From Thermoplasmata archaeon (lineage in GTDB: Archaea > Thermoplasmatota > Thermoplasmata > Lutacidiplasmatales > UBA184), in assembly GCA_030037815.1 (NCBI GenBank), contig JASHPZ010000065.1, positions 1 through 37,747 of the forward strand: a DNA stretch of 37,747 bases, in the 5' to 3' direction. A program made the position numbers and the translations under genes. Within the stretch, counting starts at the first letter, position 1. The number at the start of each line of letters is the position of its first letter. The notes under the pieces are model-generated. The model worked only from the letters and a program-made list of their open reading frames with translations. It did no database searches and was not told the DNA's origin. Positions 30,650-34,181 of the stretch are shown piece after piece.

Positions 30650-30698
30650 TCGCGACCTGATCTCACGCCGGACGGATGGTTCGCTCGGCCGACGGAGT

Positions 30699-30772
30699 GG
30701 GCCCGTAGTATAGCTTGGATATCACGGTGGCCTCCGGAGCCTCAAACCCGGGTTCGAATCCCGGCGGGCCCG
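30699..30772 (+). tRNA. tRNA-Arg (anticodon CCG)
   Basis: GGGCCCG/CGGGCCC acceptor, CTCCGGA anticodon loop (CCG), CCGGG-TTCGAAT-CCCGG T arm. D and anticodon stems carry mismatches. Confidence 0.88.
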
Positions 30773-30833
30773 TTCCGACGTACGACCGAGGATCGTGCGC
30801 GCCGTCGTCCCGGCGAACCCCGTGCGTACGGCA

Positions 30834-30849: not shown

Positions 30850-30895
30850 CGGCGGCTTATCCTCACTTCAGATATTGTAGTGGTCGAGGTACCCG

Positions 30896-30979
30896 ATGCC
30901 CGAGACGTGTTGCCAGGACCCCGGCTGCGCGTGCGACCCGACGACCTGCCCACCCGGCTGCTGCGACGACTGCTGTTGA
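30896..30979 (+). CDS. 27-aa cysteine-rich, metallothionein-like peptide
   Basis: ATG...TGA translates to MPETCCQDPGCACDPTTCPPGCCDDCC (9 Cys of 27). Below the length cutoff of the supplied track. TATA-like CTTAT about 36 nt upstream; stop overlaps the arsC TTG start (TTGA). Confidence 0.7.
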   Translation: MPETCCQDPGCACDPTTCPPGCCDDCC

Positions 30980-31422
30980 CCGCCCCGCGCGTCGCCCTGT
31001 TCATCTGCGTCGAGAACGCGTGCCGGTCGTTGATGGCCGAAGCGATGTTCAACGCCGACCCGCCGCCCGGCTGGACCGCGGTTTCCGCGGGCACACAACC
31101 GGCGGCCGGGCCGAACCCGCGCACCGGCCCGATGCTGGCGGAGATCGGCCTCGCGCTCCCGGCGCACCCCCCGCAGATCCTGACCCCGGAGATGATGCAG
31201 GGGGCGCGCGAACGGGTCACGATGGGCTGTCTGGACGACGCGAGCTGTCCGGCCCAGTTGAAGGGACTCGACCTGAGGGACTGGGGGCTCCCCGACCCGG
31301 CCGGTCTCGACGACGCCGGCTTCCGACGAGTGCGCGACGACCTGCGGGGCCGGATCGCCGGGCTGCGCCGCGAGCTCGTGCTCGCCGACCGGCGGCGCGC
31401 CGCGCTCCGTCCGGCCGCGTGA
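30976..31422 (+). CDS. ArsC-type arsenate reductase / LMW phosphatase-fold protein
   Basis: VALFICVENACRSLMAEAMFN (CX5R P-loop), VSAGTQPA, VTMGCLDDASCPAQLKGLDLRDWGLPDPAG...FRRVRDDLRGRI. TTG start proposed at 30976; the 180-aa track ORF reads out of frame through the Cys-rich peptide. Confidence 0.88.
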   Translation: MTAPRVALFICVENACRSLMAEAMFNADPPPGWTAVSAGTQPAAGPNPRTGPMLAEIGLALPAHPPQILTPEMMQGARERVTMGCLDDASCPAQLKGLDLRDWGLPDPAGLDDAGFRRVRDDLRGRIAGLRRELVLADRRRAALRPAA

Positions 31423-31428
31423 TCCCCG

Positions 31429-32148
31429 TTGACGAGCTCCGGGATCGGACGGTGGCTCGCGGAGTGTGCGGGCACCGGCCTCCTGGTGGGGATCGGCACC
31501 GGAACGATCGTGGCCGCGGGCCGCGGAGGGGGGATCCCCCCGTGGCTGATGGCCCTCGCCTGGTTCGCGGCGGTGCTCGTCCCGATCCTCCTCTTCGTCG
31601 GGGTCTCGGGGGCCCACCTGAACCCCGCCGTCACCCTGGCGCTCGCCGTCAGTGGCCGGGTGGCGTGGCGGGAGGCGATCCCGTACTGGACGGCGCAGTT
31701 CGCCGGCGCGTTCGCGGCGAGCTTCGCCGTCGAGCGGTCGCTCGGAACCGGCAGCCACCTCGGCGCGACCCTCCCCGCCCACGGGCTCGTCGCGCCGGCG
31801 TTCGTGGCGGAGGCCGGCTTCACGGCGGTCCTGGTCGCGTCGGTGTTCGTGCTCGCGGACTCGGGCGTCGGGCGGTGGCGATGGAGGTTGCTCCTGCCTC
31901 CGGCCGCGGTCGGCCTGTCGACGTTCGTGATCGGCCCGTGGACCGGTAGCTCGTTGAACCCGGCCCGCACGCTCGCGCCGGCCGTCCTCTCGGGGACGTA
32001 CTCGGACCTCTGGCTCTACCTGGTCGCCGTCCCGCTCGCGGCGATCGTCGTCGCGGTCGGGTGGAAGCCCCGCGCGGTCGACATCGAGGACCAGGGCGTG
32101 AGTCCGGCGGTCGAGCGCGAATCCGAGGCCGGCGAACTCACGGACTGA
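31429..32148 (+). CDS. MIP-family aquaporin / aquaglyceroporin
   Basis: Two NPA boxes: SGAHLNPAVTLAL and GSSLNPARTLAPAVL. Six hydrophobic segments. TTG start 7 nt after arsC. Confidence 0.93.
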   Translation: MTSSGIGRWLAECAGTGLLVGIGTGTIVAAGRGGGIPPWLMALAWFAAVLVPILLFVGVSGAHLNPAVTLALAVSGRVAWREAIPYWTAQFAGAFAASFAVERSLGTGSHLGATLPAHGLVAPAFVAEAGFTAVLVASVFVLADSGVGRWRWRLLLPPAAVGLSTFVIGPWTGSSLNPARTLAPAVLSGTYSDLWLYLVAVPLAAIVVAVGWKPRAVDIEDQGVSPAVERESEAGELTD

Positions 32149-32252
32149 CCGCGCCCCGCGCTCGCGGGGGCTGCGGGTCGCGTCCGCCTCGGGACGCCCG
32201 AGTGCCCCGGCTCCCACCGGCAGCCATTAAGGGCGAGCCCCCATCCGCCCGC

Positions 32253-34181
32253 GTGACGGCCGAGGTGCGATCGCTCGCGGCCGTCATGCTCACCGACATG
32301 GTGGGCTACTCCTCGATCGTCCAGCGCGACGAGCGGCTCGCGCTCCGGCTGGTCCAAGAACAGGAGCGGATCGTCCGCGGCCGCCTGAAGGTCCGGCGCG
32401 GCCGCGCCGTCAAGTCGCTGGGCGATGGGGTGCTCGCGGAGTTCGCGAGCGCGCTCGACGCGGTCGAGTGCGCCGTCGAGATCCAGCGGGCGCTCGAGCG
32501 CCGGAACGCCCGCCGCCGGGCGGTGCGCGTCGAGCTGCGCATCGGGATCCACCTCGGGGACGTCGTCCACCGCGACCGCGACGTCTTCGGCGACGCCGTG
32601 AACATCGTCGCGCGCATCGAGCCGCTCTCGGACCCGGGCGGCGTCTGCCTGACCCAGCCCGTGTACGACCAGGTGCGCAACCGGATCGACGTGCGGATCG
32701 AGGCGCTCGGCACCCCGGCGCTCAAGCACATCGAGACGCCCGTTCCGACCTACCGGCTCCTCCTCCCGTCCGTCCGACCACGCGCCGCCGAGCTCCCCCC
32801 GGACCGTCCGCGGCTCGCCGTCCTCCCGCTCGCGAACCTGAGCGGTCAGGCCGAGGACGAGTACTTCGCGGACGGGATCACCGAGGAGCTGATCCAGATG
32901 CTCTCGAAGATCACCGGCCTCCGCGTGATCGGACGGACGTCGGTGATGCGCTTCAAGTCGTCCGCCGCATCCCCCGCCGAGATCGCGCGCGAGCTTGGCG
33001 TCCAGTCGGTCCTCGAGGGCGCGATCCGCAAGGCCGGCGCGCGCGTCCGGGTGACGGCCCGTCTCCTGGACGGAAAGAGCGGCGAGTCCGTCTGGTCCGG
33101 CGAGTTCGACCGGCAGGTCGAGGACGTCTTCGCGCTCCAGTCGGAGATCTCGCGCAAGATCGCCGGGTCGCTCGAGGTCCGCATCCTCGGGGGCGAGCGC
33201 GCGGCGCTCCAGCGCCCGATCACCTCCGACCCGGACGCGCACGCATTCTACCTCAAGGGCCGCGCGCTCCTCAACCGACGGACCGCCGACTCGCTCCGCG
33301 CGGCGCTGGGGGAGTTCCGCTACGCCCTGCGGGAGGACCCGGCGCTCGCCGAGGCGCACGCGGGCGCCGCCGACGCCTTCAGCACGCTCGCCTGGCTCGA
33401 GTTCGCCCGGCCGAAGGAGGCGTTCCCGCGGGCCCGGGCGGCCGCCCTGCGGGCCGTGCGACTCGACCCGGCCCTCGCCGAGGCCCACGCGTCGCTCGGG
33501 TTCGTCCGGTTCCTCTACGACCGCGCGTGGGTGGAAGCGGAGACGGAGTTCCGCCGCTCGATCGCGCTCAACCCGAACTACCCGACGGCCCACCAGTTCT
33601 ACTCGGACCTGCTGAAGGCGTTGGGCCGGCTGGACGAGGCGCTGGTCGAGGTGGAGCGGGCGCGCGAGCTGGACCCCCTGTCCCTCGGGATCAACACCGC
33701 GCGCGGCCACGTGCTCTACCTGGCCCGGCGGTACGACGAGGCGATCGACCAGTACCGCCGGGCCCTCGCGCTCGACCCCGGGTTCGCGCAGGCCCACCTC
33801 TGGTTCGGCCGGCCGTACCTCGAGAAGGGGAGGTACGACGCGGCGATCGCCGAGGTCGAGACCGCGGTCCGGCTGACCCACGAGAGCACAATGAGCCTCG
33901 CCGTGCTCGGGCACGCGCACGCCTCCGCCGGCCACGCGCGGGAGGCGCGGGCGATCCTCGCGCGACTGCTCCGTCGCGGGCGGACTCAGTACGTTCCGTC
34001 GTACTGGATCGCGCTCGTGCACGTCGGATTGGACGACCGGGACCAGGCATTCCGCTGGCTCGACCGGGCCGACCGCGAACGGTCGGCGTGGCTCGCGTGG
34101 ATCAAGGTCGAGCCGCGGTTCGACGGGTTGCGCTCCGACCCGCGGTTCCCGCGTCTGCTCCGGCGGCTCAAGCTCGCCTGA
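32253..34181 (+). CDS. Class III adenylate/guanylate cyclase with TolB-N/FlgO-like region and TPR repeats
   Basis: AAVMLTDMVGYSSIVQRDE, KSLGDGVLAEF, RIGIHLGDVVHRDRDVFGDAVNIVARIE. Then LAVLPLANLSGQAEDEYFADGITEELIQMLSKITGLRVIGRTSVMRFK and TPRs. GTG at 32253 with CATTAAG 22 nt upstream. Confidence 0.92.
   Translation: MTAEVRSLAAVMLTDMVGYSSIVQRDERLALRLVQEQERIVRGRLKVRRGRAVKSLGDGVLAEFASALDAVECAVEIQRALERRNARRRAVRVELRIGIHLGDVVHRDRDVFGDAVNIVARIEPLSDPGGVCLTQPVYDQVRNRIDVRIEALGTPALKHIETPVPTYRLLLPSVRPRAAELPPDRPRLAVLPLANLSGQAEDEYFADGITEELIQMLSKITGLRVIGRTSVMRFKSSAASPAEIARELGVQSVLEGAIRKAGARVRVTARLLDGKSGESVWSGEFDRQVEDVFALQSEISRKIAGSLEVRILGGERAALQRPITSDPDAHAFYLKGRALLNRRTADSLRAALGEFRYALREDPALAEAHAGAADAFSTLAWLEFARPKEAFPRARAAALRAVRLDPALAEAHASLGFVRFLYDRAWVEAETEFRRSIALNPNYPTAHQFYSDLLKALGRLDEALVEVERARELDPLSLGINTARGHVLYLARRYDEAIDQYRRALALDPGFAQAHLWFGRPYLEKGRYDAAIAEVETAVRLTHESTMSLAVLGHAHASAGHAREARAILARLLRRGRTQYVPSYWIALVHVGLDDRDQAFRWLDRADRERSAWLAWIKVEPRFDGLRSDPRFPRLLRRLKLA

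Follow-up and report, generated by a model that had tools for sequence, protein, structure and literature searches.

A cysteine-rich mini-peptide gene at the head of an archaeal arsC-aquaporin operon, with a probable metallothionein-like role in arsenite buffering

In the bacterial metallothionein system of smtA, the gene of its SmtB/ArsR-family repressor, smtB, lies divergent to the metallothionein gene, and in phytochelatins and in plant and fungal metallothioneins As(III) is held by peptide thiolates. The repressor gene can also be remote from the metallothionein gene, as in azuR-nmtA (PMC8790569). In Sinorhizobium meliloti, an arsenate reductase and an aquaporin form the ArsC-AqpS pair, with downhill release of As(III) (PMC9454679). 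Short cysteine-rich ORFs are further known from mycobacteria, where leaderless polycysteine sORFs are described as attenuators (Canestrari et al., 2020, as cited in PMC9094748). In the literature searched, no metallothionein-type peptide dedicated to arsenic was found for archaea, the combination of Thermoplasmata, metallothionein and arsenic returned general papers only, and the paper describing the Lutacidiplasmatales makes no mention of arsenic.

Here, a window of 37,747 nt (the whole stretch of DNA analyzed) from a 1.57-Mb, 89% complete MAG of a soil archaeon, G000, was compared with its relatives in a family of 103 genomes. The relatives are Thermoplasmata archaea (Lutacidiplasmatales, Thermoplasmatota), Candidatus Lutacidiplasma silvani included, and all sequences compared come from MAGs. 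The arsC sample comprised 108 distinct loci of the family, 107 of them testable for an upstream Cys-rich sORF.

The peptide gene and its operon

An earlier note, made from the window's letters, had proposed an unlisted metallothionein-like peptide gene leading an arsC-aquaporin operon. On re-reading, the peptide sequence, its coordinates, the count of 9 Cys in 27 residues and the spacing CC-x4-C-x-C-x4-C-x3-CC-x2-CC were all exact, the TTGA overlap of the peptide stop with the probable TTG start of arsC was real, and a CTTAT was found about 35 nt 5′ of the ATG (Table 1). The comparison with relatives supported the ORF as the operon-heading gene, very probably translated. The arrangement is best explained as a three-gene arsenic operon of peptide, arsC and aquaporin, with the peptide gene first.

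Table 1. Features of the predicted arsenic operon in the window, and the hxlR gene of the same genome
Feature	Position	Strand	Basis or remark
TATA-like box CTTAT of the peptide-arsC-aquaporin operon	30856..30860	+	Same place in 41 aligned sites; putative promoter element
Operator palindrome CACTTCA-GATAT-TGTAGTG, probable HxlR site (putative)	30864..30882	.	1 mismatch vs. consensus CACTTCA-N5-TGAAGTG
Shine-Dalgarno (SD) GAGGT, 5 nt 5′ of the peptide ATG	30886..30890	+	SD enrichment at family peptide starts
Cys-rich peptide gene, 27 aa, MPETCCQDPGCACDPTTCPPGCCDDCC, 9 Cys	30896..30979	+	31-member promoter-sharing family (28 arsC-linked and 3 further)
arsC, LMW-phosphatase-type (thioredoxin-type) arsenate reductase, TTG start in the TTGA overlap	30976..31422	+	Pfam LMWPc PF01451
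MIP-family aquaporin/aquaglyceroporin, probable As(OH)3 channel (predicted)	31429..32148	+	Pfam MIP 3e-33
hxlR of G000 (L230), separate contig	C88:29132-29455		HxlR family, three invariant Cys

The window ArsC carries, as read by sequence, a CVENACRS P-loop and the redox cysteines of MGCLDDASCP, and its matches to NCBIfam PRK13530 and TIGR02691 were both under the model cut-offs. Downstream of the operon, 32061-34181 encodes a fusion of a class III adenylate/guanylate cyclase domain and TPR repeats.

The note had suggested searching related archaea for a Cys-rich frame ahead of arsC, and this search was positive. Such an ORF (≥4 Cys, ≥15% Cys, ≤200 nt upstream of arsC) lies directly 5′ of arsC in 28 of the 108 loci and encodes 22–42 aa with 20–38% Cys. 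Among the testable loci it was found at 28/107, while the controls gave 6/4000 for random windows taken from these loci, 0/107 for reverse complements and 26/2140 for first-order Markov shuffles. Under a stricter threshold (≥6 Cys, 20%), 28/107 loci stood against 3/4000 windows, 0/107 reverse complements and 3/2140 shuffles. Across the CxxGCCxxC block that is common at the C-terminus (16 loci), 158, 213, and 402 differences fell at codon positions 1, 2, and 3, respectively, and 0, 13, and 135 in its four Cys codons. The regions outside this block diverge too fast for dN/dS, and the closest pair, L004 and L034, differs by 1 synonymous and 2 nonsynonymous changes in 99 nt, too sparse for such an estimate.

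The peptide stop most often overlaps or abuts the arsC start in the 28 loci. SD matches of ≥4 nt were found at 89% of the peptide starts. The corresponding figures were 36% for arsC starts and 29% for random sites, indicating that ribosome loading most likely takes place at the peptide and that arsC is translated through coupling. The note's suspicion of a false ArsC N-terminus was borne out, as LMWPc homology is confined to residues 40–159 of the 180-aa ORF that begins at GTG 30880. In L118, L174, L144, L128, L149, and L110, stops interrupt the arsC frame 1–7 codons ahead of the arsC start, which excludes a conserved ArsC N-terminal extension. On this sequence evidence, the long arsC call running through the peptide is wrong. 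Because its genes are shorter than 45 codons and are hidden by such false arsC extensions, the peptide family is invisible to standard annotation.

A chance ORF, produced where GC-rich DNA reads as Cys in one frame while ArsC truly starts at GTG 30880, would agree with the arsC frame being open back to that codon in the window and with the lack of a Cys-rich frame in the nearest relative (G093/L003, ArsC 79% identical), which has the same promoter. However, this GTG overlaps the operator and, judging from the position of the TATA-like box, probably lies at or before the transcription start. Chance and an ArsC N-terminal extension were both rejected, on the homology limits, the control windows, the bias of divergence to the third codon position and the stops in relatives, and we give this explanation virtually no weight. 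From the sequences compared, the status of the peptide as a gene and its membership in the regulon described below are well supported.

Peptide family, promoter and HxlR regulator

The 31 peptides are 22–43 aa long and contain 5–15 Cys (20–38%) in CC, CxC, and CxxC arrangements, in keeping with the small size and Cys content (15–35%) of metallothioneins. Their pooled composition, with 31.6% Cys, 13.5% Pro, and <2% I+L+V+F+Y+W, likewise fits the low aromatic and hydrophobic content of metallothioneins. The sequences are strongly diverged (examples are MPDTCCESAQCTPNADCCDPTCCPPGCCDDCCTP, MSENDPGCCDPLGCPPGCCDWC, MSELCCPTPCCRIACCRMPCCETPCCDPKVCRPDCCTSCC, and MPDTPRPGPCCDPPTGCCCCCCCCGCARHP), and many members share the recurrent motif D-P-x-x-C-P-P-G-C-C-D-x-C-C, in which non-Cys residues are conserved as well. 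Several members are barely more than poly-Cys runs (CCCCCCCC), with 7–9 consecutive Cys codons.

Scanning 25 members against Pfam and NCBIfam at E up to 1 detected no metallothionein (PF02069 included) and no credible family; Pfam returned just two weak keratin-type composition matches, and NCBIfam none. A peptide profile had no match in the PDB. Metallothionein composition together with the lack of a family match led us to propose a metallothionein-like action outside the described metallothionein families. In the 103 genomes, at E up to 0.01, the profile matched upstream of arsC only, where its own members match by construction, and the search of 399 genomes of the class with profile A1 gave nothing outside the family. 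The arsC relatives in other phyla (L080–L096) have no such ORF, except for one ORF of low Cys density in L080.

All 28 arsC-linked peptide ORFs sit behind a TATA-like CTTAT and the palindrome CACTTCA-N5-TGAAGTG or a close variant, and nearly all start 9–15 nt after the palindrome. The promoter consensus of 41 aligned sites reads ..GTACGTAGCGGCg.CTTATgA.CaCTTCA...aTTGAAGTG. This composite pattern occurred at 41 sites in 36 of the 103 family genomes, vs. 0 for the reversed-pattern control; a scan of 399 genomes of the class found it in the family only. When 42 distinct sites were inspected, 29 led to a Cys-rich peptide, 4 to the arsenite methyltransferase ArsM, 1 to a truncated ArsM-like remnant (L159), 2 to short ORFs with 2–3 Cys left (L020 and L142), and 6 to nothing Cys-rich. 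The remnant, L159/L222 in G079, is a 52-aa ORF behind an arsenic-type promoter and directly 5′ of arsC; it resembles a C-terminal leftover of ArsM, i.e., a decaying arsM.

Homologous loci lacking the Cys-rich frame had been named in the earlier note as evidence against the gene, and here the outcome was divided: 28 loci keep the frame, while some relatives, the nearest included, have the promoter only (L003, L124, L141, L147, L097, and L059). These promoter-only loci and the fast evolution of the peptide indicate that it is dispensable.

The promoter/operator is common to the peptide operons, the arsM-arsC operons and the divergent hxlR gene. A regulator of the HxlR family (Pfam PF01638) is divergent from the operator in most of the inspected operator loci, and all 36 operator-bearing genomes have its gene, compared with 13 of the 67 others. 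Cys14, Cys16, and Cys32 (numbering of the G026 HxlR) are invariant among 45 HxlR sequences and would suit a three-thiolate As(III) site. In G000, exactly two palindromes with ≤1 mismatch were found, one before hxlR on its separate contig and the other before the peptide, which ties the regulator to the operator independently of neighborhood. The HxlR proteins L224–L230, linked to the operator by divergence or by a palindrome, are candidate As(III) sensors outside the ArsR/SmtB family. Where relatives have the divergent hxlR, the window has a tRNA-Arg(CCG) (30698-30773) directly 5′ of the operon, and traces of the usual divergent-promoter sequence (CACTACGCCGGTACGTAGCGG) persist just 5′ of the TATA-like box.

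The slot before arsC and copies away from it

The slot before arsC is occupied by the peptide in 28 and by ArsM in 39 of the 108 loci; elsewhere it holds an HgcC/AbrB-like protein whose N-terminus is Cys-rich, a regulator of the ArsR type, or another gene. No slot contains both peptide and ArsM (0/28 vs. 39/80, Fisher p = 4e-7, shared ancestry ignored). ArsM anywhere in the genome is also rarer with the peptide, at 3/26 vs. 40/67 arsC-bearing genomes (p = 2e-5, shared ancestry again ignored), and none was detected in G000 at the threshold used. The ArsM of G059 matched NCBIfam NF008823 above the cut-off. On the ArsC tree, about 12 switches between peptide and ArsM were counted, and the peptide state changed ≥10 times on branches with good support, indicating that the exchange occurred many times. 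In L104, L113, and L116, the gene before arsC encodes an AbrB-like protein whose N-terminus is rich in Cys (CCGDDCCGAESSCCGFPASGCC for L104), and that of L104 matches NCBIfam HgcC (NF040962, ‘HgcAB-associated’).

Behind arsC, the 28 peptide loci carry a MIP channel in 25 cases and ACR3 in 2. A preference for the aquaporin over ACR3 was nominally significant (p = 0.005) and was unsupported once loci were paired on the tree for relatedness.

Three further copies, under the same promoter, lack an arsC immediately after them. In L217 (G071), MTERPPKDRCCTRTTECTADGPCECVEECCCCCSDGSGPPSRR is followed by nothing on that strand and no ars gene; in L218 (G098), a Ppx/GppA-like gene (named by eye), and no ars gene, comes about 100 nt after MPTTRGSDGRCDPSCCPPGCCDE; and in L219 (G059), a poly-Cys peptide that starts with GTG and has a promoter of its own precedes a second complete promoter and arsM-arsC. 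These standalone copies are hard to square with the ORF being purely a cis leader of arsC.

Function of the peptide and comparison with known systems

We consider it probable that the peptide is a metallothionein-like member of an arsenic regulon that heads its operon and acts in trans, its thiolates buffering the As(III) that ArsC produces, with the aquaporin as exit. As(III) binding at the three invariant HxlR cysteines would derepress the operon, and peptide and ArsC would be produced in a coupled manner. ArsC would then reduce arsenate to arsenite, the 9 thiolates of the peptide, enough for as many as three As(III) bound as AsS3, would hold the new As(III) and shield the thiols of the cell, and the aquaporin would release As(OH)3 down its gradient. 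In most peptide genomes, thiolate buffering would replace methylation by ArsM. The binding of As(III) is suggested by the composition, about a third Cys with almost no Ile, Leu, Val or aromatic residues, and by the regulon; the metal could be another soft ion instead. More tentatively, and with rather less confidence than in the buffer role, the peptides may represent a new archaeal class of ribosomal arsenite-binding mini-peptides (22–42 residues) that repeatedly replaced ArsM under a new HxlR-type As(III) sensor with three cysteines.

Two other functions were weighed against buffering, both of which we regard as unlikely. The ORF may be a cis-acting leader in which the speed of Cys-codon decoding, set by Cys-tRNA supply or by a loss of thiols to arsenic, controls the overlapping arsC while the peptide itself is idle. 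The mycobacterial Cys-rich uORFs have a similar architecture, being short, rich in Cys runs and just 5′ of the next gene (PMC4633059), and at the peptide-arsC loci a Cys-rich sORF indeed directly precedes a gene that, mostly lacking an SD, is probably coupled to it. The runs of consecutive Cys codons point the same way, although the poly-Cys members suit a regulatory leader and a metal ligand equally. Conversely, L217, L218, and L219 depart from the rule that an attenuator acts only in cis with its target always behind, the recurrent motif conserves non-Cys residues, and RNA structure at the junctions does not exceed chance (mean z of 0.34, compared with 0.19 at arsM-arsC junctions), so that the standalone copies and the missing structure disfavor a cis attenuator. 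In addition, arsC mostly has no SD to mask or free, and a slowdown in Cys decoding would presumably reduce the coupled arsC instead of increasing it. The leader reading keeps most weight for the poly-Cys members, and peptide and leader functions could coexist. Less likely still is a specific partnership in place of a bulk sink, in which the peptide would serve ArsC as a thiol/redox partner or As(III) chaperone, or would pass As(III) to the aquaporin or the HxlR sensor. The tight stop-start coupling, the Cys pairs alongside acidic residues, the Cys-rich N-terminal stretch of ArsM in the same slot and the need of LMW-phosphatase-type ArsC for external thiols all agree with it, but the number (5–15) and spacing of Cys are too variable for specific docking, copies exist away from arsC, and the peptide is absent at most arsC loci of the family (80/108).

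If the buffer role is confirmed, a peptide route would join the microbial arsenic toolbox, with the recurrent swap of an enzyme, ArsM, for a peptide sink in one operon slot, and this exchange would bear on who methylates arsenic in acidic soils. The HxlR family would gain a testable As(III) sensor, and the loci offer a clean case for deciding between a Cys-codon attenuator and a small Cys-rich protein that is functional.

Compared with the mycobacterial polycysteine attenuators as cited above, the archaeal sORF is alike in being a short Cys-rich ORF just before the next operon gene. It differs in having an SD, copies without a target gene and no junction structure, and in that the gene behind it encodes an arsenate reductase instead of a cysteine/sulfur gene. 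With the bacterial metallothioneins SmtA/BmtA/NmtA (PF02069), the peptide shares a very small size, Cys-richness and putative control by a metal-type repressor whose gene is divergent or remote. However, it has no sequence match to them, is about half as long, contains CC doublets and C runs with hardly any His, and lies in an archaeal arsenic operon with an HxlR-type instead of an ArsR/SmtB regulator. The chemistry proposed is that of phytochelatins and of plant and fungal metallothioneins, to which no homology was found, while the archaeal peptide is ribosomal and encoded in an arsenic operon. Relative to ArsC-AqpS of S. meliloti, the archaeal operon adds a Cys-rich peptide in front and a regulator of the HxlR family.
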